Assembly: GCF_017349355.1 (NCBI RefSeq)
Contig: NZ_JAFMPM010000008.1
Location: forward strand, 1,054,001-1,118,000
Reading direction: 5' to 3'
From: Thiothrix fructosivorans
Lineage (GTDB): Bacteria; Pseudomonadota; Gammaproteobacteria; Thiotrichales; Thiotrichaceae
Length of the DNA: 64,000 nt
Position numbers and translations under genes: made by a program. The notes under the pieces are model-generated. The model was not told the origin of the DNA, searched no databases, and worked only from the letters and a program-made list of their open reading frames with translations. This document shows, in pieces, positions 4,270 to 61,800 of the stretch. Numbering within the stretch: position 1 is the stretch's first letter; each line of letters begins with the position of its first letter.

Positions 4270-5451
4270 TTACTTAGCGAAAGCTTGTTTCGCCGCCCGC
4301 ACCGCCACACCGCTATTAATCTGCGCATTCATGCCGGACAACACCGCATCCAACGCGCCCAAGCAGTTCAGCACGTTCTTCTCATTGCTGGCAAAGCCCA
4401 TCAAGCCGATGCGCCAGATTTTGCCAGCCAATGCGCCCAAGCCTGCGCCGATTTCCAGACTGTAATCGTTGAGCAACGCACTACGCACTGCGGCTTCATC
4501 TATACCTTCGGGCAAAGTGACCGAGTTCAGTTGTGGCAAACGGTAAGCCTCATCCACCACGAAACGCAAGCCCATCGCTTCGATCCCCGCTTTCAAGGCT
4601 TGATGGTTACGCGCATGACGCGCCCATGAGTTTTCCAAGCCTTCTTCTTGCAACATCACCAGCGATTCGTGCAGCGCATACAGGGTGTTGACCGCAGCAG
4701 TGTGGTGGTAAGCGCGTTTGCCCGCGCCACCCCAGTAAGCCATGACCAGATTCATGTCCATGAACCAGCTTTGCACGGTGGTTTTGCGGTTTTTGATGCG
4801 TTCAATTGCCCGATCACCGAAGCTCACTGGGGAAATGCCGGGGACGCACGACAAGCATTTTTGTGTGCCGGAATAAATCGCGTCGATTTCCCACTCATCC
4901 ATTTTCAGTGGCGTACCTGCCAATGATGTCACGGCATCCACAATGGTCAAGCAATCGTAATCGTGTGCCAGTTTCACCAACGTTTGCGCGTCGGATTGCG
5001 CACCTGTGGAGGTTTCTGCATGGACAAACGCCACGACTTTGGCATCAGGATTCGCTTTCAGCGCGGCTTCGACTTTGTTGGGATCAACTGGCTTGCCCCA
5101 ATCATCCATCACCATGATCGGGGTTGCGCCGCAACGCTCGACGTTCTCCTTCATGCGTCCGCCGAATACACCGTTTTGGCAAACGATGACCTTATCACCC
5201 GGCTCGACCAGATTCACAAAGCAGGTTTCCATACCCGCCGAGCCGGGCGCAGATACCGCCATCGTCAACTCGTTTTTGGTTTGGAAAGCGTATTGCAGCA
5301 TCGCTTTTACTTCATCCATCATGCCGACGAACATGGGGTCAAGATGCCCCAGTGTCGGGCGAGCCATTGCGCCCAACACACGCGGGCTAACGTCGGAAGG
5401 GCCAGGTCCCATGAGGGTACGGACGGGCGGGTGGAAAGATTTCACTGTCAT
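4270..5451 (-). CDS. Serine-glyoxylate / alanine-glyoxylate aminotransferase (class V)
   Basis: A 393-residue class V PLP aminotransferase of full family length. It opens with the family signature LMGPGPSDVSPRVL and GHLDP; it has HAETSTGAQ near residue 145, DAVTSLAGTPL near 172 and YSGTQKCL, in which Lys198 should bind PLP. The family moves the amino group from serine or alanine to glyoxylate, giving glycine plus hydroxypyruvate or pyruvate, so it can serve photorespiratory glycolate salvage or a serine cycle; which substrate is used cannot be told from sequence. It follows the C-C lyase of the Ter metabolic arm on the same strand after 43 bases, but is probably a separate metabolic gene. Confidence 0.85.
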   Translation of the reverse strand: MTVKSFHPPVRTLMGPGPSDVSPRVLGAMARPTLGHLDPMFVGMMDEVKAMLQYAFQTKNELTMAVSAPGSAGMETCFVNLVEPGDKVIVCQNGVFGGRMKENVERCGATPIMVMDDWGKPVDPNKVEAALKANPDAKVVAFVHAETSTGAQSDAQTLVKLAHDYDCLTIVDAVTSLAGTPLKMDEWEIDAIYSGTQKCLSCVPGISPVSFGDRAIERIKNRKTTVQSWFMDMNLVMAYWGGAGKRAYHHTAAVNTLYALHESLVMLQEEGLENSWARHARNHQALKAGIEAMGLRFVVDEAYRLPQLNSVTLPEGIDEAAVRSALLNDYSLEIGAGLGALAGKIWRIGLMGFASNEKNVLNCLGALDAVLSGMNAQINSGVAVRAAKQAFAK

Positions 5452-5494: not shown

Positions 5495-6451
5495 CTATGG
5501 AAAAATAACAGGGCAAATGTGGGGTTGTACGTTGCTAACGGTATGCAGGTGGCAACCAAAATACGTGGCACGTTCCATGATTTGCACTGCCCAATGGTGA
5601 TGCGTGGCAGGCTCACACATTGCGCCGTTAAACTGGAATACTGCTGGCATAGAATCATCTAAAATCCGTCGTGCTGCTTCGTAATCGCGGCTATCGACTT
5701 TCAAGGCTTGCTGGATCACCGCAATCTGGCTGGGGTGAATCACCGTTTTGCCCACCAAGCCGTGCAATAAATCGCGCTGGAATTCTGCCTGCAACACGCT
5801 GTGGTCTTGGAAATATTCAAATACAGGCGCGGTCAGGTTAAAACCGGCGGGCACACAATGCGTCACCAACATCGCCACCACATGCCCTAAGGGGCCATCG
5901 TACAGCGTGTGCGCATGGTGAGTACGCAGCCGCAAACACGACAATAAATCATTGCCACCAATCCGCAACGCAAGAATGCGCGACTTAATACCTTCATGTT
6001 GCAACTGTTCGCACAACTGGCGCACAGCACGTTCATCCAGCACTTGCGCCGTTTCTAGCGTGGGCATGAACATCCAATGCGGTGGGGCGTTTTGCACGAC
6101 GGAATACCAATCCGCGAAGGAATGATTGTCGAATTTCGGTAGCACCAAGCCGTCGATGCTGTCAATCCCATCCAGTGTCAGTATGTCGTGCGCCATGCGT
6201 GGGTGGCGTGGGCGGATAAATACCAGCGGACGTGAATCGCGCTCGTTCGGCGGGTGTAATTCGTGCAAGCACTGCTGGAGATTATCCAGACCAGCAATGA
6301 CTTCATCCTCGCGCAGGGAGTCTTCGAGGCAAATCACCATCGAGCGCAGGTCGGCAATTTTTTGGTGCAAAATCACGTCCAGCAAGTCGGGGCGTGTGGC
6401 GGGCATGTACAAAGTTGCGCCCAAACGGTAAGGGGATAGGGTTGGTGTCAT
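5495..6451 (-). CDS. HpcH/HpaI-CitE-like C-C lyase of Ter cluster
   Basis: A 318-residue TIM-barrel protein of the citrate-lyase beta/HpcH type. It shows ATLYMPATRPDL at the start, MVICLEDSLREDEV (acidic metal-binding segment), FIRPRHP, GLVLPKF and the late GKTVIHPSQI motif. Members beside ter genes are thought to form or cleave a C-C bond while building an unidentified, possibly nucleoside-like, metabolite. The start overlaps the StiP gene by four bases, so the two are translationally coupled. Malyl-CoA or citramalyl-CoA lyase activity is the alternative, because an aminotransferase of the serine-glyoxylate type follows. The Ter context is the better guide. Confidence 0.75.
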   Translation of the reverse strand: MTPTLSPYRLGATLYMPATRPDLLDVILHQKIADLRSMVICLEDSLREDEVIAGLDNLQQCLHELHPPNERDSRPLVFIRPRHPRMAHDILTLDGIDSIDGLVLPKFDNHSFADWYSVVQNAPPHWMFMPTLETAQVLDERAVRQLCEQLQHEGIKSRILALRIGGNDLLSCLRLRTHHAHTLYDGPLGHVVAMLVTHCVPAGFNLTAPVFEYFQDHSVLQAEFQRDLLHGLVGKTVIHPSQIAVIQQALKVDSRDYEAARRILDDSMPAVFQFNGAMCEPATHHHWAVQIMERATYFGCHLHTVSNVQPHICPVIFP

Positions 6452-7521
6452 GTGGTTTTCTTAATAATTGTGATGGCACGGTAGGGCGCAAGTGTGTCAC
6501 CGACCGCTTGCAGGGGAATACTCCGTGCTGCGGCTAAGTGGCGTAACAAGCGGATGTTGGGGTCATCGAGGCGTTGTACCAGAATATGTTCCGGTACGCG
6601 GCGCATGACGGCACGCGTGGCTTCGGCAATCCCCGGTTTGAGGCGGTTAAGGTTGGTAATCTGATGCGTTTCTACTAAGTGCGCAATCGTGGTGTGTGAC
6701 AGGGCAAGCAGTGGTTGCCGTTGTGCATTTGACCAGACGCACGGGCTGACATCCGCTTGTTGACGGCGGCAAGCATCCACGTCGCTGATGAAAGCATTGC
6801 TGACATCGTGCGCGGCTAGCTGTTGGTAGTTGACGCACGCGTGCCAGCCACCATCCTGCGTTAAGATCGAGCGCGATACCAAGCCGGAAACCGTTGTTCC
6901 CAATACGCCAAACGGAATCAGCCAATCTTCTCCCGATGCGGCAAGCCATGCTTTGCCGGTAGGGTCAGCCAATACGGCTAAGGGAATGTCGCCGTCAGGG
7001 TAACGTGAGCCTAGTGAGGCTTGCAGTTCGGTGTGAATCGCGCCTTTGCCGACCCAGCCATCTACCCACACAATGTCGGCGAAGGCGTGGCGTTGTGCAA
7101 TCCAGTCCACGGCGGCGTGGTCGATGCCTTTGTCACGGATAATGCTGATGCCGTAATGGGTGCTGTCCACACCTAAATCACGTAAAGCGCGTACCAGCAA
7201 CACGCCCAGCGGCACGCCTGCGCGTACAAAGCTCACCAGTACAATCGGGCGGTTGGGGCGGCGTTGCTGTAAGGTCAGCGCGAGGGCTTGAACTTCACGC
7301 GCCAAGCGTTCGCGCCCGTCATCAAGTGCTTGTTGGAACAAAGCTAAGTGTGCTGCATCGGGGGCGGATTCCACACTGAGCATTTCCGAATAATGGCGCT
7401 GCCCGCTTTGGATTAAGCGTTCTTTTTCGGCAATATCCGTGGTCGCCAACGCGACTTGCCGCAGCAAAAACGTCACATCGCTAGGCGGATACGAGCCGTG
7501 AAAAGCGTCAGCGGGGTTCAT
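6448..7521 (-). CDS. StiP-type PRTase/cysteine-protease-like protein with PELOTA domain
   Basis: A 357-residue protein of the StiP family found in Ter metabolic operons. The first ~250 residues form the StiP domain, with IVLVSFVRAGVPLGVLLVRA near residue 95 and VWVDGWVGKGAIHTEL near 155; published analyses see this as a phosphoribosyltransferase-like fold despite the cysteine-protease name. The last ~90 residues (TIAHLVETHQITNLNRLKPG onward) match a PELOTA RNA-binding-like domain. It overlaps the HAD gene upstream by four bases (ATGA) and the lyase downstream by four, in the middle of a tightly packed minus-strand operon. The biochemical activity is unproven. Confidence 0.8.
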   Translation of the reverse strand: MNPADAFHGSYPPSDVTFLLRQVALATTDIAEKERLIQSGQRHYSEMLSVESAPDAAHLALFQQALDDGRERLAREVQALALTLQQRRPNRPIVLVSFVRAGVPLGVLLVRALRDLGVDSTHYGISIIRDKGIDHAAVDWIAQRHAFADIVWVDGWVGKGAIHTELQASLGSRYPDGDIPLAVLADPTGKAWLAASGEDWLIPFGVLGTTVSGLVSRSILTQDGGWHACVNYQQLAAHDVSNAFISDVDACRRQQADVSPCVWSNAQRQPLLALSHTTIAHLVETHQITNLNRLKPGIAEATRAVMRRVPEHILVQRLDDPNIRLLRHLAAARSIPLQAVGDTLAPYRAITIIKKTT

Positions 7522-8252
7522 GACAACGACCTACAAATTTGCGTATTTGGTGGAAACGCCGCGAAGTCACACAAGCGCATAAAGCCCAAATCGGACACGC
7601 TATCGCCCATGCCAAACACGGGGACACGTCCCTGTTCAGCCGTGTGCCGCCGCAGAATTTCTGCCGCTGCTGCGCGTTTGTTGACGAAATCGGGCAGCAG
7701 CGCCAAGTTGTTGCCATTCATGTGGGTGTAGAAGCCTTGCAAGTTAAGAGTTTCACGTAAGCTGTGCAGCAGTTGCTGGAGGTCTGCTGTGCTGGCGGTA
7801 TTGCTTTTGATCACCAGATACGCCGCCGTATCTTCTACCGATTCCAGCCAGCCACGTAAAGATAACCCCAGCGTTTCACCGATTTGCAGTGCCGTTGCCA
7901 ACATGGCAGGCAAGCGGTCTTGGTAAGCAGCAAGCTGTGGTTGCATCTGTGAATGCCAGTCGGGGTCAAGTGTGCCATCCGTTTGCAGAATCGCCGCGCC
8001 GTGGACGCATACCGCGCCGTGTTGGAAGGGTAGGTGAACACGTTTGAAAGAGGCAATGCCTCGCGCCGTCACCGGAATCACCGTCATGCAATCTAGCGCC
8101 CAGTGGATGAAATCGTGTTGCCACGGGTGCATGAAGCTGCCGCTGTCGCTGGTTTTGCCTTGTGCGGCGGGGATTTTGTCCGCATCCGCTGGCATCTTTC
8201 GCGCTGTCTGGAACAGCGTGTCGTCAAGGTCGGTGAGTAACAAGGGCTTCAC
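7518..8252 (-). CDS. HAD-superfamily hydrolase of Ter metabolic operon
   Basis: A protein of about 244 residues with the HAD nucleophile motif LLLTDLDDTLF at its N-terminus, a middle lysine region and a late GMGDSVSDLGFM motif that holds the metal-binding aspartates; a Cof-like cap lies between. It is probably a phosphatase acting on a product of the two PRTase-like neighbours. A GTG at 8270 would also open the frame. I prefer the GTG at 8250-8252, because it overlaps the upstream stop as GTGA and has GGAG at 8261-8264 at good spacing. It is translationally coupled on both sides. Confidence 0.8.
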   Translation of the reverse strand: MKPLLLTDLDDTLFQTARKMPADADKIPAAQGKTSDSGSFMHPWQHDFIHWALDCMTVIPVTARGIASFKRVHLPFQHGAVCVHGAAILQTDGTLDPDWHSQMQPQLAAYQDRLPAMLATALQIGETLGLSLRGWLESVEDTAAYLVIKSNTASTADLQQLLHSLRETLNLQGFYTHMNGNNLALLPDFVNKRAAAAEILRRHTAEQGRVPVFGMGDSVSDLGFMRLCDFAAFPPNTQICRSLS

Positions 8253-9349
8253 GGGTAGAACTCCAGACACGTTGGGTTCAAAGCAGTGATCAGTTCCTTA
8301 TCCAGCAAATGCGCAGGTGGTTCGCTGCACAGCAAGATGCGGTCGTAGTCGCTTGGCACGACGTTGTAGAGGAAGTTGGCAATGCCTTGCCCGTAATTAT
8401 CGTGCAAGCAATAGCGGTGTTGGATGCTATGCCCTAACGCAATCGGCGAGCGGGTGGTCGCACTGAAATGTACCGTCGCACCTTGCTGTTCTAGATATTC
8501 CGCCAACAGGTACGGCGGCCAGACGAATTCGCCTGTGCCTAATACCAGAATGCGTTCGCCAGCGGTGACGTTGATGTTGAAGGTGGAAACCCGATGCTGG
8601 CGCACGCCCAAACGTCCCCAATCATTCGCGGGGTTGGCGTGCCATTCACCCGTACCGAGCACATCGACTTGCGGCATTTCGGGTGGGGGCGCATCGTTAG
8701 CTTGCCAGTCCCAATGTCCTGACAGCAGTGAAACGGCAATAGCGCGTTTGCCCAACCGTTCAGCGGCTGCTCCGCCCGACCAGTCAGTGAGGGTCGCGGC
8801 GACAATGTGTTCAAATTGATCTAGCCCCGCGTGTTGCAAGGCTTCCAGCAGGTTGGCGAAGGTTTTGCCGGTGGAGGCTTCGTCATCGACCAACACCAAG
8901 GAGCGTGCGGTGCGTAGCAATTCGACATCGGCAGCGTGTTGCGGCAGGTGCAGCACTTGCTGAGTGGCGTGGCTGTGTTCTTCGCGGAATTCGACCAACA
9001 CCGGCAAGTCCAGCGGGTGGCGCGTGGTACACAAATACAGCGTGTCGTCACGGTCACGACAAAGGGCTTGCTGCACCCCAGCACCCAAGGCAATCGCGGT
9101 TTCTGCCATGCCAATCACCACGACAGGGCCCGGTAAGTCGCGGGGGATTTGTGCGGCAAGCGTGTCAGTGGCGTTGCGCATGACCGCAGGCGATACCGGA
9201 ATATGCCTTCCCAACACTTTGGAAACAAATAGAAAAGCACGTTTCGGGTTGCGGCGCTGCGCAAAGCCAAACAGCTCGTCCGGCGCGTGTGTACCGGATT
9301 CAATGGTGAGATTGAGCGTGCCCTGTTCGAGGGCAACGTTGATTTGCAT
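8249..9349 (-). CDS. Phosphoribosyltransferase with TRSP domain
   Basis: A 366-residue protein. The N-terminal two thirds are a type I PRTase-like domain: GPVVVIGMAETAIALG near residue 75 and the PRPP-binding loop LVLVDDEASTGKTFANLL near 152. The last third, from about residue 240 (GERILVLGTGEFVWPPYLLA, then TRSPI), is the TRSP domain, named after its own motif, which is visible here. PRTase-TRSP proteins are a constant part of Ter-associated biosynthetic operons and are predicted to attach a base or similar group to phosphoribose. The gene leads into the HAD gene with a four-base overlap and follows the TerD-protease gene after 49 bases. Confidence 0.85.
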   Translation of the reverse strand: MQINVALEQGTLNLTIESGTHAPDELFGFAQRRNPKRAFLFVSKVLGRHIPVSPAVMRNATDTLAAQIPRDLPGPVVVIGMAETAIALGAGVQQALCRDRDDTLYLCTTRHPLDLPVLVEFREEHSHATQQVLHLPQHAADVELLRTARSLVLVDDEASTGKTFANLLEALQHAGLDQFEHIVAATLTDWSGGAAAERLGKRAIAVSLLSGHWDWQANDAPPPEMPQVDVLGTGEWHANPANDWGRLGVRQHRVSTFNINVTAGERILVLGTGEFVWPPYLLAEYLEQQGATVHFSATTRSPIALGHSIQHRYCLHDNYGQGIANFLYNVVPSDYDRILLCSEPPAHLLDKELITALNPTCLEFYP

Positions 9350-50609: not shown

Positions 50610-51176
50610 ATGGATGAACACATGATTACATCGGAAGAAGCGATGCGGGTAATGGCAGAGGCAGACCTGCTGCATTCAGCGGAAGACGTCGCGGCAATGC
50701 TGGATCGCATGGCAGTCGAAATCACCGCCACACTGGGTGATAAAACCCCGTTGGTGCTGTGTGTGATGACGGGCGGCGTGATCGTCACGGGGCATTTGCT
50801 GACGCGCCTTAACTTCCCGCTGGAGCAAGATTATTTGCACGCCACCCGTTACCGTGGTGCAACCAGTGGCAGCAAAACCATTACGTGGTTACACAAGCCC
50901 GAAGCGGCGTTGGTAGGGCGGCATGTGTTGCTGGTGGATGATATTCTCGATGAAGGTTATACCTTGCGTGAAGTGGCGCGGTGGTGTCGGGAACAGGGCG
51001 CGGCATCGGTACACATCGCGGTGTTGGCGGATAAGCAGCACGACCGCCGTGTGGAAGGCATTTGGTGCGACTTTCCCGCGATTGAACTAGTCGACCGCTA
51101 CGTGTTCGGTTTTGGGATGGATTATAAAGAATACTGGCGCAACGCTAACGGTATCTACGCAGTAAAAGGACTTTAA
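50610..51176 (+). CDS. Hypoxanthine-guanine phosphoribosyltransferase
   Basis: A 188-residue type I PRTase. The PRPP loop reads HVLLVDDILDEGYTLRE near residue 105; LVLCVMTGGVIVTGHLL and YLHATRYRG precede it; the hood residues VDRYVFGFGMDYKEYWRN near 160 mark the HGPRT family. It makes IMP or GMP from the free base and PRPP. A second ATG at 50622 is also possible. Next to it, 2 bases downstream, is a methylthioinosine phosphorylase, whose product hypoxanthine is this enzyme's substrate. Confidence 0.9.
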   Translation: MDEHMITSEEAMRVMAEADLLHSAEDVAAMLDRMAVEITATLGDKTPLVLCVMTGGVIVTGHLLTRLNFPLEQDYLHATRYRGATSGSKTITWLHKPEAALVGRHVLLVDDILDEGYTLREVARWCREQGAASVHIAVLADKQHDRRVEGIWCDFPAIELVDRYVFGFGMDYKEYWRNANGIYAVKGL

Positions 51177-51178
51177 AG

Positions 51179-51916
51179 ATGACAATTGAATTTGCGGTGA
51201 TCGGCGGCACAGGCTTGACCGAAATCGAAGGTTTGGAAGTAATTCACCGTGAAGTGGTGCATACGCCTTACGGTGAGCCGTCGGGGCCTGTGACGCATGG
51301 CATGATTGCGGGCAAGCGCATCGTGTTTTTGGCACGGCATGGTTACACGCATAATATTCCACCGCATAAGGTTAATTACCGTGCAAATCTGTGGGCGCTG
51401 AAAAGTTTGGGCGTGGAAAAAGTCGTGGCAATGGCAGCGGTGGGCGGCATTACCCCTGAAATGAAGCCGATGCGCTTGGTGATTCCTGACCAGATTATCG
51501 ACTACACCTACGGGCGTCCGCATACCTTTTTCGAGGAAGGGTTGACGGATGTGACCCATATCGACTTTTCATGGCCGTATTGCCCTGAGGTGCGCAATGC
51601 CTTGCTGGCTGCGGCAGAATGCGCCCAGTTGGATGTGGTGCCGCGTGGTACTTACGCCGCTACACAAGGGCCACGGCTGGAAACAGTGGCAGAAATTGCG
51701 CGGCTGGAACGTGACGGTTGTGATTTGGTGGGTATGACGGCGATGCCGGAAGCCTCACTCGCCCGCGAATTGGGGTTGTGTTATGCCAGTTGTGCCGTGG
51801 TAGCAAACTGGGCAGCAGGCAAAGACAGCGACGAAATCACGATGGAAGAAATTCAGGAAAATCTGCTGGTGGGCATGGCGAATGCGCGTGCGTTGTTACG
51901 TGCGTTGATCTGCTAA
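51179..51916 (+). CDS. S-methyl-5'-thioinosine phosphorylase
   Basis: A 245-residue member of the MTA/PNP phosphorylase family. It shows FAVIGGTGLTEIEGLE at the start, FLARHGYTHNIPPHKVNYRA near residue 56, GTYAATQGPRLETVAEI near 160 and GMTAMPEASLARELGLCYA near 185. Residues of the purine site fit the inosine-preferring (MTIP) type rather than MTAP, judged mainly from context: the HGPRT gene is just upstream, so hypoxanthine released here can be salvaged. Ribosome site AAAGGACTTTAAAG overlaps the previous stop. Confidence 0.85.
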   Translation: MTIEFAVIGGTGLTEIEGLEVIHREVVHTPYGEPSGPVTHGMIAGKRIVFLARHGYTHNIPPHKVNYRANLWALKSLGVEKVVAMAAVGGITPEMKPMRLVIPDQIIDYTYGRPHTFFEEGLTDVTHIDFSWPYCPEVRNALLAAAECAQLDVVPRGTYAATQGPRLETVAEIARLERDGCDLVGMTAMPEASLARELGLCYASCAVVANWAAGKDSDEITMEEIQENLLVGMANARALLRALIC

Positions 51917-51919
51917 GCC

Positions 51920-52351
51920 TTGGTGGAAGCGCAACCGCCGTTATATTTGCAGCCAGTGGCTTCGCGGCAACTGGCTGTTTTTTTGGTGGGAACGCATCTA
52001 CTGGCGGCTGTTGTGGTGGGGTTGATGCCTGCGTTGGCGGTTTGGGCAAAGAGTTTGTTGTTGCTGCCGATTGTGTTGTCGTTGCGTTATTACTGGCGCT
52101 TGCATATTAGTCGGGTTGCGCCGAATGCGGTGCAGGAAGTGCGCTTTTATCAGGTGGATAATGCGTTGGTGCGTACTGCTTCTGCTGGATTTTTGGCGCG
52201 GCTGGATGACAGCAGTTTTTTGCATCCATGGCTGTGTGTGCTGAATTGGCGGGCGCAGAGCGGCACGTTGTATACGTTGATCTTAATGCCGGATAGTGTG
52301 CCTGATGATGTACTAAGGCAGTTGCGGGTGCGGGTGAAGTTTTATGGTTGA
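51920..52351 (+). CDS. YgfX/CptA-like membrane protein
   Basis: A 143-residue protein with two adjacent N-terminal hydrophobic segments (AVFLVGTHLLAAVVVGLMPA and LLLLPIVLSLRYYW) and a soluble C-terminal part (LHPWLCVLNWRAQSGTLYTL; the LPDSVPDDVLRQLRV-like ending), which is the layout of YgfX proteins. YgfX usually lies beside sdhE, which is absent here. The start codon is TTG 51920 or GTG 51923, without a strong ribosome site, so it is probably coupled to the upstream gene. It overlaps the next gene by 8 bases. Confidence 0.65.
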   Translation: MVEAQPPLYLQPVASRQLAVFLVGTHLLAAVVVGLMPALAVWAKSLLLLPIVLSLRYYWRLHISRVAPNAVQEVRFYQVDNALVRTASAGFLARLDDSSFLHPWLCVLNWRAQSGTLYTLILMPDSVPDDVLRQLRVRVKFYG

Positions 52352-54554
52352 TAATGTGCCAGCCAATTATTTTCCACTCCATGTATTTTTTGAGCGCCTG
52401 AATCGGGCGGGTATTGTGGTCAGTATCCGTGACTATCGGCGGATTAGCCGTGTGTTGGCGGCAGAGGGTGACTGGACATTACAGCGGCTGGAACGGGTGC
52501 TGGGCAATCTGTTAGTGCGTGATCGGGATGAGCGTTTGCTGTTTCAGCATGAATTTCGGGGATTTTTTGCCGTAGCAGAGGGCGAGCCGTTAGCGGTGGA
52601 TGTGCAGCGTTGGCGCGACGACATGGCACGGTTATTGGCTGAATCACCCCCATCAGTAACTTCCCCTGCAAGCGATTCTCCCGATTCCATTCCAGAAGAA
52701 GAATCGCTTGCAGGGCAAGCTCCTACAAAGCCAGTGCGTTCAAAGAGGTGGTGGCGTTGGTTGTTGTTGGTTGTGGGGGTGTTGGGTGCTGTTTGGTATG
52801 TCTACTTTTCCCCGCCGCCTACGGTTGCGCCGCCTCCAACGCCAGACAAGCCAAATGTCACTCAAACCGATACCCTCAGCGGCAAACCGCCAATTTCTGA
52901 CATGATCAAGGTGCAGGTAGCGCAACAGCCGCTTGAACCCGTGTCAGACAAACGTATCCTGACGGATTTATGGCTACCGGGGGCGATCGTTGCAGCGTTG
53001 TTGGCTGCGGGTTTGTTGGGGGTGTGGTGGACACAGTATCGCCCGCCCAACATTCGCCAGAAAATCCCGTGTGACCCGACGTTACCCGCGCAGTATTTTG
53101 ATGATGCCAGTGTGGGCGGGGCAATGCCGCCGTGGTTGGCGGAGGCGGATGCTGACCATCTGGCGTATCAGTTGAGCTACATTCTCACCGATCAGTACAC
53201 CCGCGAACTCGATATTCCTGCCAGTATCCGTGCCACGTCTGAGGCGGGCAGCGTGCCGGTATTGCGGTTTCAGAAACGGCGCGATTTGCAGCGTATCCTC
53301 ATCCTCACGGATCAGCTTGTGCCACAACAGGGTTGGCATCAGTTGCCTGTTGAATTGGTGCAAGCCTTGCAAGGGCGAGGTGTTCACCTCACCTTTGGGC
53401 GATTTAACCGTAGCCCAGAACGTTTCATGGATCAGCACGGTTGGGCGCAATGGCTGGAGGATTGGGAAGAATACCGTCATCACCTGTTACTGCTGATTTT
53501 TGCCGATACCCATCAGACGGAAGGTTTGCAGGATTTCCCGTGGCGGGACTGGCCGGATGCGCGGCTGTTGACGCGGCAAGAACAGCGGGATTGGGATTTT
53601 CGCGAACAGGGTTTGCAGGCGCAAGGGGTACGCTTGTTGCAGGCCGATGCGGCGGGTATCCAGCAAGCATGGGGTGCAGCGACGTGGCGACCAGCGGCCT
53701 TGGAGGCGACGCGGTGGGAAGTGGCGGGGCAAAAGCCTGAGGAAAGTGACGCAGCATTTTTGGAGCGGGTGCTGGGGGCGGCGTTGCCGTGGGCGCAAGC
53801 ATTGGCGTATTACCCCGGTGCGTGGTCATTGGTGGCGGCGGAACGCTTGCGGGAAGCATTGTTTGCAGATGTGCCGCGTTTGGCGTTACAGCGTTTGTTG
53901 GGCTTGCCGGGGATGTGGGCGGCGGCGGATTTGGCGGCGTTTGCGCCACGCTTGCGGGTGGTGTTGCTTACAGGATTTATGCGGCGCACGCGGGCGGAAC
54001 AGATGGCGGTGATTGAGGTTTGTTTGAGGATGATGAAGGAGGAAATCCCCGCTCCGACTTCTTTAGCATGGGCAATCTGGCTCTGGAAGTGCATTCGGTT
54101 GGGGTGGGTACTTGACCCAGATAAGGCGGCGGCAGAGCTGCATGCGTTGGTGGTGTCTGTGCCTGCGTTGTGTGAGGCTATCCGCGAGGAAATGGAGCAG
54201 ATGCCGGAGGATGTGGCAAGCGCGGCGTTGCTGGTGCCAGCGACGCGCACTGGGCGGCGGCATTTGTTGGCAGTGGGGAAGGCTTGTGGGCTGAAACAGG
54301 CGGTGGTGTATGCGGCTACGCGGTGGTTAAAGACGGTGGTGTATGCGGCTGCGCGGTGGTTAAAGACGGTGGTGTATGCGGCTGCGCGGTGGTTGAGGAA
54401 TGTCGGGCTGGTGAGTTTTGCGGCTGCGCGGTGGTTAAAGACGGTGGTGTATGCGGCTGCGCGGTGGTTGAGGAATGTCGGGTTGGTGAGTTTTGCGTTG
54501 GCGATTGTACTGTTGGGGGTTGGGGGTTGGGGGTTGGGGGGAATACATTTGTAA
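52344..54554 (+). CDS. vWA/CoxE-like membrane protein of conflict system
   Basis: A 736-residue protein not recognised as a known enzyme. Residues 10-75 (VFFERLNRAGIVVSIRDYRR; NLLVRDRDERLLFQHEFRGF) match the N-terminal helical part of CoxE-type vWA proteins, partners of MoxR ATPases. Membrane segments lie at about 137-154 and 210-229. Residues ~300-385 (LQRILILTDQL; LLLLIFADTHQTEG) look like a degenerate vWA domain without a clear DxSxS site. After residue 650 come tandem repeats of VVYAAARWLKT, then a third hydrophobic segment (FALAIVLLGVGGWGL). The frame stops just after four TTGGGGG units; one added unit would continue into the FGE domain downstream. Confidence 0.75.
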   Translation: MVDNVPANYFPLHVFFERLNRAGIVVSIRDYRRISRVLAAEGDWTLQRLERVLGNLLVRDRDERLLFQHEFRGFFAVAEGEPLAVDVQRWRDDMARLLAESPPSVTSPASDSPDSIPEEESLAGQAPTKPVRSKRWWRWLLLVVGVLGAVWYVYFSPPPTVAPPPTPDKPNVTQTDTLSGKPPISDMIKVQVAQQPLEPVSDKRILTDLWLPGAIVAALLAAGLLGVWWTQYRPPNIRQKIPCDPTLPAQYFDDASVGGAMPPWLAEADADHLAYQLSYILTDQYTRELDIPASIRATSEAGSVPVLRFQKRRDLQRILILTDQLVPQQGWHQLPVELVQALQGRGVHLTFGRFNRSPERFMDQHGWAQWLEDWEEYRHHLLLLIFADTHQTEGLQDFPWRDWPDARLLTRQEQRDWDFREQGLQAQGVRLLQADAAGIQQAWGAATWRPAALEATRWEVAGQKPEESDAAFLERVLGAALPWAQALAYYPGAWSLVAAERLREALFADVPRLALQRLLGLPGMWAAADLAAFAPRLRVVLLTGFMRRTRAEQMAVIEVCLRMMKEEIPAPTSLAWAIWLWKCIRLGWVLDPDKAAAELHALVVSVPALCEAIREEMEQMPEDVASAALLVPATRTGRRHLLAVGKACGLKQAVVYAATRWLKTVVYAAARWLKTVVYAAARWLRNVGLVSFAAARWLKTVVYAAARWLRNVGLVSFALAIVLLGVGGWGLGGIHL
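54303..54497 (+). repeat. In-frame 33/75-bp tandem repeats
   Basis: Two 33-bp units (54303-54335, 54336-54368) are followed by a 75-bp unit (54369-54443) and most of a second copy (54444-54497). The 75-bp unit is the 33-bp unit extended by a LRNVGLVSFAAARWLKT-coding part. All lengths are multiples of three, so copy number changes keep the frame. They encode VVYAAARWLKT-type repeats. Confidence 0.85.
54513..54541 (+). repeat. Heptanucleotide array (TTGGGGG)4 plus G at a frame junction
   Basis: Four direct TTGGGGG units (54513-54519, 54520-54526, 54527-54533, 54534-54540) end in an extra G. Seven is one more than a multiple of three, so gain of one unit (or loss of two) moves the vWA-like frame exactly into the FGE frame; the present copy number ends the upstream protein 13 bases later. 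This is the form of a slipped-strand phase switch. Confidence 0.8.
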
Positions 54555-55417
54555 GAGAAATACCCTTCATTCCCCCTTCTCTTGTTTCGTTTTTTGCACA
54601 GGATGGAGAGCAAACATCCAATAATGTGATAAATAAGTTGTCAAAAGCTTCTCAGCAATCGCAACCAACGACAGTAACCCCAACAATGGTTAAAATCAAT
54701 GGTGGTAAGTTTACAATGGGCTGCGACTCTGAACGTGAAGATGGCTGCTTGGCTAACGAAAAGCCCGCGCATGAAGTCAATGTATTGACCTTTTGGATGA
54801 GTAAAACCGAAGTGACGGTTAGGCAGTATATGGTCTGTGTGAATACGGGTGCTTGTCCTAAACCGCAATGGCAGGAAAAGAATGCGCCCAGTTATTACAA
54901 GGCTATGGGTGAGGCTCTCATTGGTGATAATTACCCGATTGTGGGTGTTAGTCAGCCAAATGCCATAGCTTATGTGCAATGGTTGAGTCAGCAAACCACC
55001 AAAAAATACCGTCTGCCGACAGAAGCTGAATGGGAATATGCAGCACGAGCAGGTACGAATACTGCCTACTCGTGGGGCAACGGGATAGGCAAAAATAATG
55101 CAAATTGTTCTGGGGACTTGTGCGGCGATAAATTTAACTATACTTCTCCTGTTGGTAGTTTTGCAGAAAACCCATTTGGTTTGTATGACATGCACGGTAA
55201 CGTGAATGAGTGGATGGAAGATTGTTGGAAGGATAATTACAATGATGCCCCTGTCGATGGTAATGCTCGTCAGGGGTGTCGCATGAATGCCTCTGGTGTG
55301 TTACGGGGGGGCGCGTGGTTTTACGAACCTCAGTGGTTGCGTTCTGCTTCCCGCAACGGTTATCCGCTAGATTTTCGTATCAATTTTGTTGGATTTCGTA
55401 TTGCTAGTACTAATTAA
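54542..55417 (+). CDS. FGE/SUMF1-like domain, out of frame with upstream gene
   Basis: About 240 residues of formylglycine-generating-enzyme fold: VKINGGKFTMGCDSE, FWMSKTEVTVRQYMVC, YPIVGVSQPNAIAYVQWLSQ, YRLPTEAEWEYAARAG, DMHGNVNEWMEDCW, GVLRGGAWF and the ending RINFVGFRIAS. The catalytic Cys pair of true FGE near the C-terminus is absent (LRSASRNGYPLDFR there), so it is probably a binding domain. No good start exists: the frame is open from a TTG at 54284, and the first ATG in the domain is 54686. It most likely forms the C-terminal half of the upstream protein after a frame change at the heptamer array; the start given is the end of that array. Confidence 0.75.
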   Translation, partial: NTFVREIPFIPPSLVSFFAQDGEQTSNNVINKLSKASQQSQPTTVTPTMVKINGGKFTMGCDSEREDGCLANEKPAHEVNVLTFWMSKTEVTVRQYMVCVNTGACPKPQWQEKNAPSYYKAMGEALIGDNYPIVGVSQPNAIAYVQWLSQQTTKKYRLPTEAEWEYAARAGTNTAYSWGNGIGKNNANCSGDLCGDKFNYTSPVGSFAENPFGLYDMHGNVNEWMEDCWKDNYNDAPVDGNARQGCRMNASGVLRGGAWFYEPQWLRSASRNGYPLDFRINFVGFRIASTN

Positions 55418-55504
55418 CAGGTTAAATTAACTTTTTCCTTCATTATCAATGCGCAAATCCTAAGCGTGTTGAATATGTGACACTGTTTGTTATAAGCTCA
55501 GTAA

Positions 55505-57409
55505 ATGATCGTTAGTTGGGGGGATCTTGTGCTGAATTTCGACCTCGTTATCCAATCGGCTGCTACGGGCTATGCGTGGGGCTTGTACCCGCAAGGGCAG
55601 CCAGCGCCCTGTTTGCAGGGCAATTTCCAGTTGGATACGGTAGAACTCAAAGGCAAGCCGGTAAAGCTGAGTATGCTGGATGATGCCTTTATCCATTTCA
55701 AAAAAGACATTCTGAGTGCATTTGACGAAGCTGCCCAGTTGCAATTGGGGCAATACCTTTACCAATTAATTTTTGCTGCTGCGTCCGCCAATCTTTTTCC
55801 CCCGCAAGAAGCCGTGCTATTACGGGTAGTGTCGGATGATGCCTTTATCCAGCGTATCCCGTGGAATTTATTGACCTGCCATAACACTTTTCTGGTGATG
55901 GAAGACTGGCATGTCACAGTGGCAACCCAAGCGAATGCGCCGAGGCGTGCCGTGCAGTTTGCCGATGTCCCCAAAGTCTTGCTGGTGTGTCAGGAACCGC
56001 GTGACCAAACCGCGACGGGGGCTGGGGAACACGGCAACGATTTACTGCAATATTTGCGGGGGCGGCGTTACGGCTATTTCCTCAACTCGCACGCCTTGGC
56101 AGTCGCGGCGGATTGGGATAGTTTTCGCCGTAAGCTGGATGAACAGTCGTGGGATGTCATCTATTACTACGGGCATGGCATGGGTGATGGTTACGGCGCA
56201 TCCCTATTGTTTACTGATGCCTCCGGCAAGGCGATGGAAGTGACGATGGGCAAGCTGGCGGCGATGCTGAAAGCAGCCCCGCCGAGTTTACTGTATTTGA
56301 ATGCCTGCCGCAGCGGTAGCAATGGCATTGCGGGGTCAGTGACACAATTGCAAATGATCCCCGCGCTATTGGTGAATCGTACCGATGCGCTGACTGATGC
56401 CGCCCGCGAACATGGGCGGATATTCCTCGAACGGCTGTTGCTTGACCATTACCCGCCGCATCAGGCCATTACCCATGCCTACAACAGCAAAGGGCATGGT
56501 TTAGCAGCGATTCGTTGGATGATCCCGATCCTTTACCAACATTACACCGAATGGCATTTCCCGCACAGTAATGTGCAGCGTTTTGTCGTCAAAGACATGC
56601 ACTGGTATTTGAAGCTTGACCGAACCGCCCAATTCAGCCGGGTGTTTTACCACACCAGTGAGATGCTGGTGTCCGATAGCCCGACCACCTTGGCGTGTTT
56701 CTGGCACGGTACAAAAGAGCAGGGCGTCGAACGTTTTCACGAGCGCCTGCCGATTGAGTTGAAAAAACATTCGCGGGATATGGAAATGGTGACCTTTACC
56801 TTCCGTTGGCCTGCCCATTTCAACGAGTTGCATCAGGCGTTTGAACACATGGTCTGTAAAGGCTTCGGGATACGCTTTCTGGATGATTTGCCCGGTATGC
56901 TGCAAAACCTCAGCATTGGCGGCATCAGCAATCCCTTGGTGGTACATTGCCGCTTTGAAACACTGCGCAAGGGTAGCCCTATGAATCTGGGGCGCTTGGC
57001 ATTCTTCCTGAAATGGTGGGAAACCGAAGTCCATGCTCGCCTGCGTTCATACGGGATACGCACTTTGTTGGCACTTGGCTATGAGTTGAAAGAGCCTGAC
57101 CCACAGTTTGCAACGATTTGTCGCAATGAATTAACCAAGGTTAAACTTAAGTCCGGGATGAAGCTGGAATTGCTGGATGAGCTACAACAGGTGAGTGAAC
57201 AAGACATCTTGGATTTTTTGGAGAAATTTGATGTGGAGTTGCCGGTAGTGGGGGATGACCGCTCGAAATTGATCAACGACATTGTGGTGCGTACCGAGGG
57301 GCATTACGAGAAAGTACTCAACGAATTGCAGACCATTGTTTCGCAAGCACATAAACTGTTTGAACAGCAGATGATGCCTGCCAATGTTATCACTGACCAC
57401 GGATATTAA
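55505..57409 (+). CDS. CHAT-domain caspase-like protease of conflict system
   Basis: A 634-residue protein. Residues ~155-370 form a CHAT (caspase/HetF-type) peptidase: His224 in YYYGHGMGDGYG and Cys268 in LYLNACRSGSNG make the catalytic pair. The N-terminal 150 residues look like a beta-rich CHAT-associated region (RIPWNLLTCHNTFLVMEDW). The C-terminal 260 residues are unassigned; they hold CKGFGIRFLDDLPGMLQNLS and a final helical part. GTG 55529 after GGGGGGAT may be the true start rather than ATG 55505. The MoxR gene follows after 2 bases. Expected role: proteolysis of a target when the system is triggered. Confidence 0.85.
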   Translation: MIVSWGDLVLNFDLVIQSAATGYAWGLYPQGQPAPCLQGNFQLDTVELKGKPVKLSMLDDAFIHFKKDILSAFDEAAQLQLGQYLYQLIFAAASANLFPPQEAVLLRVVSDDAFIQRIPWNLLTCHNTFLVMEDWHVTVATQANAPRRAVQFADVPKVLLVCQEPRDQTATGAGEHGNDLLQYLRGRRYGYFLNSHALAVAADWDSFRRKLDEQSWDVIYYYGHGMGDGYGASLLFTDASGKAMEVTMGKLAAMLKAAPPSLLYLNACRSGSNGIAGSVTQLQMIPALLVNRTDALTDAAREHGRIFLERLLLDHYPPHQAITHAYNSKGHGLAAIRWMIPILYQHYTEWHFPHSNVQRFVVKDMHWYLKLDRTAQFSRVFYHTSEMLVSDSPTTLACFWHGTKEQGVERFHERLPIELKKHSRDMEMVTFTFRWPAHFNELHQAFEHMVCKGFGIRFLDDLPGMLQNLSIGGISNPLVVHCRFETLRKGSPMNLGRLAFFLKWWETEVHARLRSYGIRTLLALGYELKEPDPQFATICRNELTKVKLKSGMKLELLDELQQVSEQDILDFLEKFDVELPVVGDDRSKLINDIVVRTEGHYEKVLNELQTIVSQAHKLFEQQMMPANVITDHGY

Positions 57410-57411
57410 GC

Positions 57412-58350
57412 ATGACCTACCCCTTCAACCTATTAGCACAATCTGACCCAAAAGCCGTGCTGGATGCGTTACAAAACCGCCGAATCCCCAAAGATGGTTT
57501 GAAAACCGACGCACCGCGTTTTGTTCCAGACATTGATTTGCAAGAAGCCATCAACACCGCGCTTGCTGTGGGCGAACCTTTGCTGCTGACTGGCGAACCG
57601 GGAACAGGTAAAACACAAGCAGCATACTACGCCGCATGGAAATTGGGGCTAGGCGATGTGCTGCATTTTCAGGTCAAGTCCGACAGCACCGCGCAAGACC
57701 TGCTCTACCATTTCGACAGTGTGCGCTATTTCCACGATGCCCATTTGCGGGCGGGTGTGACCCTGAGCAAAATGGATTACGTGGAAGAACGCCCCTTGTG
57801 GGAAGCGCTGACCTCCGACAAACCACGGGTGCTCTTGATCGACGAAATCGACAAAGCTCCACGTGATTTCCCCAACGACTTGTTGCATGAACTTGATCAA
57901 ATGAGTTTTACCGTCAAAGAAACCGGGGGAGTGGTAACGGTGCAAGACCATAACCGCCCTTTGGTCTTTATCACCTCCAACAGCGAACGCCGTTTGCCGG
58001 AAGCGTTTTTACGCCGCTGCGTGTTTCACCACATCGACTTCAAGCGTGATTTGTTGAAAACCGTGCTGGCAAGTCATCAGGCTTCGTTTAGCCGCTTCTC
58101 TGACGGTTTTCTGGAACTGGCGGTTAATCGCTTCATGCTGCTGCGTAAAGAACGGCTGCGCAAGATACCCGCCACGGGTGAACTGCTGGTATGGCTGAAA
58201 ACAATGGCATTGGATGCCGGTACGTCCAGCCAACGTCTGGATGAATTGTTCCGGCAACTCGACAATGCTCAGAAAAAGCCGCCTTATCTCGGCACACTGC
58301 TGAAAGACCGCGAAGATCTCAAAGCCATGCAACAGCGTTATCCAACCTGA
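57412..58350 (+). CDS. MoxR-type AAA+ ATPase of conflict system
   Basis: A 312-residue AAA+ ATPase: Walker A GEPGTGKT at residues 61-68, Walker B LLIDEID at 141-147, sensor 1 FITSNSERRLPEAFLRRC with the arginine finger, and a C-terminal lid. The FHHIDF segment after the finger is typical of the MoxR group. MoxR ATPases work with vWA proteins as assembly or disassembly chaperones. Here it lies 2 bases after the CHAT protease and downstream of a vWA-like protein, so it is probably the NTP-driven threshold part of the system. Confidence 0.9.
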   Translation: MTYPFNLLAQSDPKAVLDALQNRRIPKDGLKTDAPRFVPDIDLQEAINTALAVGEPLLLTGEPGTGKTQAAYYAAWKLGLGDVLHFQVKSDSTAQDLLYHFDSVRYFHDAHLRAGVTLSKMDYVEERPLWEALTSDKPRVLLIDEIDKAPRDFPNDLLHELDQMSFTVKETGGVVTVQDHNRPLVFITSNSERRLPEAFLRRCVFHHIDFKRDLLKTVLASHQASFSRFSDGFLELAVNRFMLLRKERLRKIPATGELLVWLKTMALDAGTSSQRLDELFRQLDNAQKKPPYLGTLLKDREDLKAMQQRYPT

Positions 58351-58384
58351 TTGCCGCTTTCTTAATCCAACAAGGAATATGTCC

Positions 58385-58720
58385 ATGAAAGAATTACCTG
58401 TTATCTTTTCTCAAGAAACCCAAGCAGCCTCAGGCAATGCTACCGGTGGCTTCGATAGCTTGGGTGGCGGACGCTTGAGTTCTAGTAACAGCAATGGTGG
58501 TTTGCGTAACTTACCGACCGAAAAGCTGGCAGCTTCCCTGAGTAGTATCAAAGATAGCCTTGATGATATTTTTGCTTCCATCAAGCAAGTGGGTAATTTT
58601 GAATTGAATGAAGTACAACTTACCTTGGAAATTACTGCTGAAGGTGGGTTTGCTTTGGTCGGTCTGGCAAAAGCCGGTGCAACCGGCGGTATTACCCTGA
58701 CATTTGCACCACCCAAATAA
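58385..58720 (+). CDS. Small Pepco/Trypco-like protein of conflict system
   Basis: A 111-residue protein. ATG 58385 is chosen because AAGGA at 58372-58376 has proper spacing to it; ATG 58379 is too close. The N-terminus is Ser/Gly/Asn-rich and flexible (LGGGRLSSSNSNGGLRN); the middle is one amphipathic helix (LSSIKDSLDDIFASIKQVGN); the end is a small beta sheet (LTLEITAEGGFALVGLAKAG, then GGITLTFAPP). This helix-plus-beta layout fits the Pepco/Trypco1 domains that co-occur with CHAT or trypsin-like proteases in conflict systems; the exact family is uncertain. It closes the operon before a hairpin. Confidence 0.6.
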   Translation: MKELPVIFSQETQAASGNATGGFDSLGGGRLSSSNSNGGLRNLPTEKLAASLSSIKDSLDDIFASIKQVGNFELNEVQLTLEITAEGGFALVGLAKAGATGGITLTFAPPK

Positions 58721-58723
58721 AAA

Positions 58724-58746
58724 ACCCTCCGGGGAGGGAGGGTTGA
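58724..58746 (+). terminator. Hairpin after the small protein
   Basis: ACCCTCC (58726-58732) can pair with GGAGGGT (58737-58743) in a GC-rich hairpin directly after the stop. The T-run is weak (TTG), so termination may be partial. Confidence 0.5.
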
Positions 58747-58873
58747 ATGCATTAAGGGCTGTGAATTTTTATTCATGTACTAGTTTTGGGGACTCTTGGG
58801 CTTAGAGTTCAGTATGTATAACGATTAAGCTCCGGTTCGGTTGACACCCTAATGAAATTTTTTGAAAACAGTC

Positions 58874-61800
58874 ATGCAAACACTTAACGCCAAAACCGTT
58901 GCCCTCACTGGCACAAACCTAATCGAAGCCAGTGCCGGAACCGGCAAAACGTGGACGATTTCATGGTTATACCTGCGCCTCGTCGCCGTCTATGACCTGA
59001 AAGTCGACACGATTCTAGTAGTAACGTACACCGAAGCGGCAACCGCCGAATTACGTGATCGTATCCGCAAACGCCTCGCCGATGCCTTGGCGTATTTGGA
59101 AGAGCGCCCGCACGAAGAAACCTACGCTGAATTGCTGATTGAAACCCCGTTACACGACTGCATTCAACGCCTGCAACTTGCCTTGGTGAGCTTTGATGAA
59201 GCCGCCGTTTTCACCATTCATGGCTTCTGCAAACGCGTGCTCTCGGAAAATGCGTTTGAAGCCCGTTTGCCGTTTGAAAGCGAATTGGTGGCAAACGAAG
59301 ACGCTTTGCTGACCGAATTAACCGATAAATTTTGGTATCAGCATTTTCTCAAACCCGACCCGCTGCATTTGATGCTGCTGCAAAAACGTGGTGTAACCCC
59401 GGATAGTTTGCTAGCGGATGTGCGTAACTTTATCGGCAAACCGTATTTGCAAGAAGAGCACGTCACCGTCACATCAGCGGATTTCACGGCGGTTAACACG
59501 GCATTACTGGCACAATTAAGCGTATGCAGCACCATCTGGCAGGCAGACGGTGCAACCATTCGTCAACTGCTGCGCGATGCGTTGGCTGCTAAGGTATTAA
59601 ATGGGGCTAGTTACAAAGCGGATAAACTCAACGACTGGTTTGCGTTGTTGGATGCGCTGTTCGCCAATGGTTTTACGGGAAAAGGCGAAGAAACCACCTT
59701 AGAAAAATTCACGACCAGTTACCTGAAGGTCAAAATCAATAAGGGCAAACAGCCGCCTGCCCATCGCTTTTTTGACAGCAGCGAACAACTCTTGGCATTG
59801 CGCCAGCCCGTTGAAGACATGTTGCCGTTAGCGTTGGAACAAGTGCGCTTAGCCTTATTGCACCACTTGCGGCACGAATTACCCATCCGCAAACAGCAAT
59901 TGGGCTTGCTGACCTTCGACGACTTGCTGCTGCATTTGCGCGAAGCCGTGACGCAACACCCCGCACTGGCGGCACGTTTAGCGACAAAATACCAAGCGGC
60001 GCTGATCGACGAATTCCAAGACACTGACCCGATTCAATACGAAATTTTTGAGCGCATTTACCGCAACAGCCCCGATCAACCCGTATTCTACGTGGGCGAC
60101 CCCAAGCAAGCCATTTACGGTTTTCGTGGCGCGGATATTTACACCTACCTGAAAGCGGCACAAGCCACCTGTTACCACCATACGCTGAAACACAATTTCC
60201 GCTCACACCCCGCGTTGTTGACTGCGCTCAACCACCTGTTCGCCCAGTCTGACCAACCCTTCCGCAGCGACATCAGCTACGAAGCCGTCGCAGCAGGCAA
60301 GCCGCAGTCCGATTTGCTGGTCGCACCACCGCTATCCCCCATCCGTCTATGGGACTGGGATTCCCTCGATGAAGGCAACAATAGCACGACCGTGCAAGCA
60401 GGCATCGCCAGCGCCGTCGCCAACGACATTGCCCGCTTACTCAATGCTGCCCGTCAAGGCGCAGCACGTATCGGCGAGCGCCCCGTGTGCAGCAGTGACA
60501 TCGCCGTCTTAGTCCGCGAAAACCGCCAAGGCGAACTGGTCAAGCAAGCCCTGTTGGAACGTGGCATTGCCAGCGTGCAAAAGTCCCGCGATAGCATTTT
60601 TTGCACCCGCGAAGCCAGCGAATTCCGTGCCGTGCTCCGCGCTATTGCCGAACCGGGCAATGAATCTGCCTTGAAACAAGCGCTCGTCACCGAGTTATTC
60701 GGCTTTACCGCGCAACGTTTGTTTGAATTGGATGAAAATCCCACCTTGCTGGAACGCGAACTCGAAGCCTTTCACCGCTGGCATAAAACCTGGCACACAC
60801 AGGGCTTTATGCCGATGTTCCGCCAGTGGATGCTGCAACGCGGGCATTACGCACACTTGCTGGCCTTGGTGGATGGCGAACGTCGCCTCACCAACTTATT
60901 GCATCTTGCCGAACTCATCCACACGGAAAGTCGCTTGCAAGGGCATGGGATGCACGCGCTAATCCGCTGGCTGCAACAAAAAGCCGAGGCTGCTGAAAAA
61001 GACGAAGCCCACGAATTGCGTCTAGAAAGTGACGAAAATCTGGTGCAAATCACCACCATCCACAAAAGCAAGGGGCTGGAATACGGCATCGTGTATTGCC
61101 CGTATTTGTGGCTAGAGCGTGACCCCAAGGCGAGTACGTGGTTCAGTTGGTATGACGCGGATACGGAGGAAGGCGTATCGCGTTTGCAAGCAGAAGCCTT
61201 TGCCAGTGATGCCGCTCGCCAGCGTTTCCGTGAGGCGGAACAGGCGGAAAACTTGCGCCTCCTGTACGTGGCAGTGACTCGCGCCAAATACCATTGCACT
61301 ATTGCACTGGTGAGCGGGCGTATTCCTGCTCCCTTTAGCTATTATTCGGCACTGGGGTGGCTGTTATTCGGTAAACTGGCGCAGGGGCATGAGATTCTCA
61401 GTAAATTGCGCAAAGACGGAATGCAGCCGGATGTGCGCCAAGCCTTGATGCACGCGCAACTCCAGCAGGTCGTGAAACAATCCGACGGTTGTATTAGCCA
61501 CGAATCCATGCCTGTTGATGATGCGTTGATTAGCTATCAGCCAGAAACAGGTGAGTGGCAATCCAGCATTCGGCGTTATCAGCCGCGTTATACACCCGTA
61601 CCCAAAGTCGGCAGTTTCAGCGGTCTGGCATCCGGCAAGGAAGACGAACGCCCCGACTACGATACCCTCGCGTGGCAAACGCCCGTGGTGCATGAAACGT
61701 TGCGCACTGCGTTTCCGCGTGGTGCAAAAGCGGGTAGTTGCTTACACAAAATGCTGGAAGAGTTGGATTTTACCCAGCCGCTTGCTGAGCAACGCGATAA

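Follow-up and report, generated by a model that had tools for sequence, protein, structure and literature searches.

A heptamer array at the frame break of a putative conflict-system sensor gene in Thiothrix fructosivorans

Two kinds of bacterial heptanucleotide repeat and one class of sensor gene are the closest described relatives of the locus reported here. In neuO of E. coli K1, a coding array of the heptanucleotide AAGACTC underwent phase variation by strand slippage, and the passages on this array give 3 to 53 units in 64 complete genomes, with 20 units the commonest (PMC13001214). The heptamers of Xanthomonas and Nostoc (GGGAATC and GGGGA(C/T)T) can form G-quadruplexes, are numerous, lie mostly in non-coding DNA and are preferentially present in four units; in the passages on their function, the authors considered a role in phase variation unlikely (PMC4692102). 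FGE/CLec sensors encoded beside MoxR ATPases were proposed to act as antigen sensors in multicellular bacteria, where they are diversified by retroelements (PMC10907252), and an FGE-like domain was described as almost exclusive to the VMAP-ternary systems of cyanobacteria (PMC7159879).

In this study, we analysed a window of 64,000 nucleotides of the Thiothrix fructosivorans genome, in which a perfect array, (TTGGGGG)4, can be read directly at 54513-54540 of the plus strand, followed by a sixth G of the last run at 54541. TRF reported the same array at 54512-54540 (period 7, 4.1 copies, 100% matches). It is located at a frame break, with an ORF of 736 codons upstream and the frame of an FGE (formylglycine-generating-enzyme-like) domain downstream, as had been claimed in a sequence-only reading of this DNA. 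The FGE frame is -1 relative to the upstream ORF and is open from 54284 to 55417. The upstream ORF is closed by a TAA at 54552-54554. Eleven bases separate the array from this stop codon, whose first letter is base 12 past the array, whereas 13 bases had been stated. No stop codon was present within the array in any frame. Because seven is a multiple of three plus one, each unit shifts the frame by one, and by frame arithmetic the two frames are continuous at 2, 5 and 8 units and broken at 3, 4 and 6. A five-unit allele would encode 1026 residues, which agrees with the fusion of about 1025 residues predicted earlier for the addition of one unit. Thus, two features of contingency loci are present, namely a perfect array inside a coding frame with a unit not divisible by three, and two gene halves, continuous in homologues, which a change in unit count would join by the same arithmetic.

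The likeness to neuO, as far as that array is described, lies in the seven-base coding unit, in a frame set by the unit count modulo 3 and in the toggling of the full-length product by gain or loss of units. However, the neuO array is 5' in its gene, has 3-53 units and was measured to vary, whereas the present array is known from one assembled sequence. It is positioned at a domain joint, after about 71% of the joined frame, comprises four units, is G-rich and quadruplex-capable, and its off state leaves a stub of 736 residues. With the heptamers of Xanthomonas and Nostoc it shares a G-rich seven-base unit and a copy number of four, the minimum for a quadruplex (PMC4692102). In contrast to those repeats as described, the unit is TTGGGGG, the three-unit motif occurs at one place in the genome, and it is on the coding strand within a gene. 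Assignment to that repeat type (many GGGNATC-type copies, mostly intergenic) was rejected, as both the unit and the single genic site differ. In the open-licence literature, we found neither the combination of coding heptamer slippage, a four-unit quadruplex and an FGE sensor, nor the placement at a domain joint; a search for Thiothrix together with phase variation also found no report there.

The array is exceptional and more than a chance product. When the local peptide was recoded synonymously 200,000 times with the codon use of this genome, a fraction of 2e-5 of the sequences reached the observed period-7 identity run of 22 bases. Perfect arrays with a period of 2-12, at least 2.8 copies and at least 20 bases were listed in 864 kb of the own genome (the window and 40 stretches of 20 kb, about 20% of the genome). 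Twelve rows were obtained: eleven had a period of 6 or 9, nine of these at one contig end (L043), and the remaining one was (TTGGGGG)4, so that no other listed array has a period indivisible by three. That contig end, the start of contig C6, harbors arrays of the nine-base unit GGTGCAACT at L043 40-865. Among 63 family genomes, the three-unit TTGGGGG motif was present in one, the own. The array is also the sole case of four G tracts of at least 5 (loops 1-7) in the 864 kb sample, while tracts of at least 4 gave three cases. A looser test was weak: a 14-base motif with at most 2 mismatches gave 3 matches in the window where 0.71 were expected, all three fall within the array, and 7 of 100 shuffles reached 3.

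The upstream ORF (52344-54554, plus strand), ending at the TAA in the assembled allele, forms the N part of the sensor gene. Hydropathy and AlphaFold2 secondary structure (4 sequences, mean pLDDT 60) suggest a helical N-terminal region, two membrane helices (residues ~139-157 and ~209-227), an alpha/beta and helical region and a third membrane helix (residues ~712-730). The array lies within the codons of this third helix, and its four G5 tracts match an intramolecular G-quadruplex motif. The N part matched no Pfam, NCBIfam or PADLOC family. Foldseek returned a best E of 0.16, with vWA-related entries among the weak matches to it, which include chain G of a NorQD complex (prob 0.75, E 0.34) and a vWA domain (1shu, TMt 0.42, E 2.1). 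These entries speak weakly for the name 'vWA-like' used in the sequence-only reading and the missing family match speaks against it; because of the mean pLDDT of 60 and the best Foldseek E of 0.16, the name is kept as a lead. Directly ahead of the third helix, TRF detected in-frame tandem repeats at 54301-54497 (plus strand; 33-bp period and two 75-bp copies that are 98% alike), which lengthen this segment, keep the frame and are absent from the aligned copies of G061, G057 (two) and G037. Therefore, the region beside the array undergoes duplication without a switch being involved.

The FGE part (54542-55417, plus strand, -1 frame) consists of a linker (54542-54676) and the Pfam domain (~54677-55405), with its stop at 55415-55417; residues 132-374 of the 377-residue ORF match Pfam FGE-sulfatase with E 4.3e-58. 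According to the positive-inside rule, the FGE domain would be located outside the cytoplasm. The earlier claim that this part has no good start of its own was borne out for the DNA outside the array, where inspection of 54500-54759 by eye revealed no start codon in the FGE frame that is preceded by a well-placed Shine-Dalgarno sequence. Inside the array, a TTG at 54527-54529 (plus strand) is in the FGE frame.

Three genes follow on the same strand, each as one open frame. The first (55505-57409) encodes a CHAT-domain protein (Pfam CHAT E 8.9e-10; omega 0.16 against G061), with a weak iSTAND match below the cut-off (E 0.0075) and no VMAP match reported. The second (57412-58350) encodes a MoxR-like AAA_5 ATPase (Pfam AAA_5 E 5.5e-13; omega 0.05 against G061); its NCBIfam match to MadB_ATPase reached 74 bits, below the cut-off of 475, and PADLOC gave weak matches to IetA and mad8. 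The third (58379-58720) encodes a Pepco adapter-domain protein (Pfam Pepco E 6.5e-17). The adjacent AAA_5 and Pepco genes on one strand provide the MoxR-type AAA ATPase with a nearby adapter that characterizes vWA-MoxR-VMAP ternary systems, and the sequence-only claim of a conflict system fits the CHAT, MoxR-like AAA_5 and Pepco neighbours. Directly 5' of the sensor gene, a small protein encoded at 51920-52351 matches Cpta_toxin, a membrane toxin component (Pfam E 5.2e-10). No Rfam family reached the gathering score in 51500-58800. An N-terminal extension, a C-terminal FGE/CLec domain and a MoxR-type ATPase neighbour are also described for the MoxR-associated FGE/CLec sensors (PMC10907252, PMC7159879); in the targets covered by these descriptions, some extensions are without known domains and some contain membrane regions. 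In contrast to them, the accessory genes are here CHAT and Pepco, and the FGE gene is not seen as a target of a diversity-generating retroelement (DGR).

This latter point was examined in the own genome. The sensor FGE gene was rejected as a DGR target because no matching template repeat was found there: the self-match was the only significant one, the next best reaching E 0.04 over 23 bases, and no adenine-biased repeat pair was found in window positions 51001-60000. Two DGRs were detected elsewhere in the genome, and in them three further FGE genes or gene pieces end in a variable repeat (VR). In the one at L080 (G000:C5:252000-262000), the template repeat (TR) is at 3371-3495, the VR at 6490-6614 at the end of an FGE match and the reverse transcriptase (RT) at C5:258979-259626, with adenine in the template at 19 of 22 mismatches. 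The other, at L081 (G000:C5:406000-416000), has its TR at 6446-6578, VRs at 4633-4764 and 7470-7601 that end two FGE matches, and its RT at C5:411627-412214; the template carries adenine at 10 of 11 and 19 of 20 mismatches. No report on Thiothrix and DGRs was found in the open-licence literature.

Relatives of the N part were found in 8 of the 63 family genomes, including the own. Six homologues in four genomes (three in G057 and one each in G037, G018 and G022) each consist of one open frame (1081-1330 codons) that extends from the N part through the FGE part, the G022 frame running to its contig end, and they carry one or two FGE domains; similarity to the N part is weak for G018, G022 and the third G057 copy, with E between 4.7e-7 and 1.8e-10. 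Judged from these continuous frames, the fusion looks like the ancestral form, as had been proposed from the sequence alone. Hydropathy was scanned in five homologues (L019, L020, L021, L025 and L026, with L024 left out). In each of them a hydrophobic helix precedes the FGE part, separated from it by no gap or a short linker in L019, L020 and L021 and by more than 200 residues in L025 and L026; in L021, the second of three helices stayed below the threshold. The array was absent from the junction in all nine homologous loci (L018-L026, with L022, in G056, having no FGE part) and from the loci surrounding this genome's other FGE matches. One FGE domain is present in the window copy and two in the copies of G061, G048, G037 and two of those in G057. 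N-part relatives were not found in viral contigs, and 52344-54500 had no DNA match in plasmids. Of 369 class genomes, only the own had an N-part match among the matches listed (21 rows, three of its family), a listing that says little about the family. A single-sequence scan of genome contigs yielded no relative of the N part, and an alignment-based scan (A1) yielded three contigs of two MAGs.

Within the genus, the sensor gene was found in 5 of 16 genomes (own, G048, G056, G057 and G061) and is whole only in G057. The G061 copy (L018 6790-10555) has several frame changes and in-frame stops, and the G048 copy (L023 5958-9870) has several frame changes, its CHAT gene also being split. In the G056 copy (L022 6979-8556), in-frame stops are present and no FGE match was found in 16 kb, a case that is weak owing to 23 ambiguous bases. 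The AAA_5 frame beside the sensor is open in all five genomes and CHAT in four of them. Pepco was matched elsewhere in the genus only in G057 and, as two pieces that differ in frame, in G061, while CHAT and AAA_5 of G061 are single frames. In G061, a short C-/G-rich palindromic stretch (L018 ~8433-8466) follows the membrane helix and precedes the first FGE domain, and similar, IPPxPPFAKGG-like peptides recur inside the open frames of L019, L021 and L026; the sequences look as if a small mobile repeat had been inserting in frame into sensor genes.

Apart from the break at the array, both halves of the gene are open. Omega values against G061 are 0.09-0.35 for the N pieces and 0.10-0.17 for the FGE pieces, the latter at a near-saturated dS of 1.2-1.9, and the G061 copy is itself broken. 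With both halves otherwise open and omega low, the gene of about 1,025 codons has a single frame lesion, which coincides with the array. Tajima-type counts of window-unique against G061-unique changes, with G057 as outgroup, gave 33 v 21, 5 v 4 and 7 v 10 for the N pieces, 12 v 5 for FGE, 19 v 23 for CHAT and 5 v 3 for AAA_5. The relative-rate chi-square was at most 2.88 and in no case significant; by this measure, preservation of the window copy does not visibly exceed that of the broken G061 copy.

These observations can be read in several ways. The sensor might be an incipient pseudogene, on its way to being lost with the four-unit allele fixed and no switching. Other lesions break the gene in three relatives of the genus (weakly so in G056), G061 retains CHAT and AAA_5 as single frames beside its broken sensor with only Pepco matched in two pieces, one FGE domain may have been lost from the window copy given the two in relatives, and the relative-rate counts show preservation no better than in G061. 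However, random decay would rarely place the single lesion of some 1,025 codons in the only out-of-frame array of 864 kb. The frame is preserved through the additional 33- and 75-bp repeats, omega is low in both halves, and we consider simple decay rather unlikely. An assembly error, in which the true unit count or the terminal G run differs and the gene is intact, would account for a single lesion in a G-rich array that ends in a G6 run and is hard to sequence. Against this, the window contains no ambiguous bases, and only two of 105 same-strand frame-changing junctions in 464 kb (L033 ~6427 and L038 ~3396) were without a nearby start, in a rough scan for ATG, GTG or TTG that covered 75 bases ahead of the stop and 90 bases past it and missed the present locus itself. 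The assembly seems sound, and we give an error little credence.

The break might also be bypassed during translation. In programmed -1 frameshifting, one mRNA would yield both the stub and the fusion from unchanged DNA. A formal -1 slippery heptamer of the X XXY YYZ type (G GGG GGA, X = Y = G) is present at 54536-54542 on the plus strand, in the upstream frame at the frame change, where the -1 frame must be entered and 9 bases before the TAA; a G5 run ending 9 bases upstream could serve as an internal Shine-Dalgarno sequence, and an RNA quadruplex could pause ribosomes. Nevertheless, the motif is a by-product, since the array plus one G gives G GGG GGA automatically, and GGGGGGA occurs 31 times on both strands of 464 kb. 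The downstream RNA (54543-54660) is not predicted to fold unusually stably (z 0.26; 120 of 200 shuffles fold equally well or better, quadruplexes not being modelled). Moreover, the intact homologues are continuous frames (six single ORFs) that need no frameshift, and the split frame is not conserved. No report combining GGGGGGA, frameshifting and slippery sites was found in the open-licence literature, and we regard frameshifting as improbable. Finally, two separate proteins would result if the FGE domain were made from its own start. Among the FGE-frame starts, only the TTG at 54527 has, by eye, a Shine-Dalgarno-like run at fair spacing, namely a G5 run 7 bases upstream. TTG starts are weak, the later ones (GTG 54626, TTG 54638 and ATG 54686) have no well-placed Shine-Dalgarno sequence by eye, and the product would be without the membrane helix that precedes FGE in the five homologues scanned. 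Separate proteins are thus very improbable.

Slippage is the likeliest cause of the frame break. The two frames would represent one gene and not two, encoding a membrane-anchored sensor of the CHAT, MoxR-like AAA_5 and Pepco conflict module, with the FGE domain (C-type-lectin fold) placed after the third membrane helix and, by the predicted topology, outside the cytoplasm. Slippage of DNA strands in a G-rich heptamer array of recent origin would have led to four units and thereby put FGE out of frame. As the array is part of the codons for the third membrane helix, the product of four units is a stub that lacks the sensor domain: the assembled allele would give a membrane protein of 736 residues that ends a few residues past this helix and has presumably lost sensing. 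The sensor is therefore probably truncated in this genome. Slippage could restore 2, 5 or 8 units, and the site is therefore reversible by mechanism, although slippage might be a slow process with only four units, compared with the 3 to 53 described for neuO (PMC13001214). The observations fit a young slippage-prone site in an often-lost gene, and we lean, with no more than even confidence, towards a recently arisen and mechanistically reversible frame break via heptamer slippage rather than an evolved and maintained switch.

The phase switch that the sequence-only reading had put forward holds in part. The array is real and exceptional and the fusion exists in intact homologues, but an array is absent from all nine homologous loci, different lesions disrupt the gene in G061, G048 and G056, and the copy is not visibly better preserved than that of G061. 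A maintained switch is at most possible in view of these points and of the 33- and 75-bp duplications nearby. It is tempting to speculate that the quadruplex-capable heptamer at the domain joint is a DNA switch between a full-length conflict sensor and a sensor-less stub, and thus a second means of diversifying FGE sensors beside the two DGRs of this genome, an idea that we consider unlikely. If the array varies, this would be a phase switch at a domain joint, and not at the gene start, in the sensor of a conflict system. Potentially, some cells would then keep the membrane signalling part without the detector, which might hedge against the cost of a self-killing defence. The sensor is broken in four of the five genus genomes that have it while the adjoining AAA_5 gene is open in all five, and the cost of the sensor is therefore a testable question.
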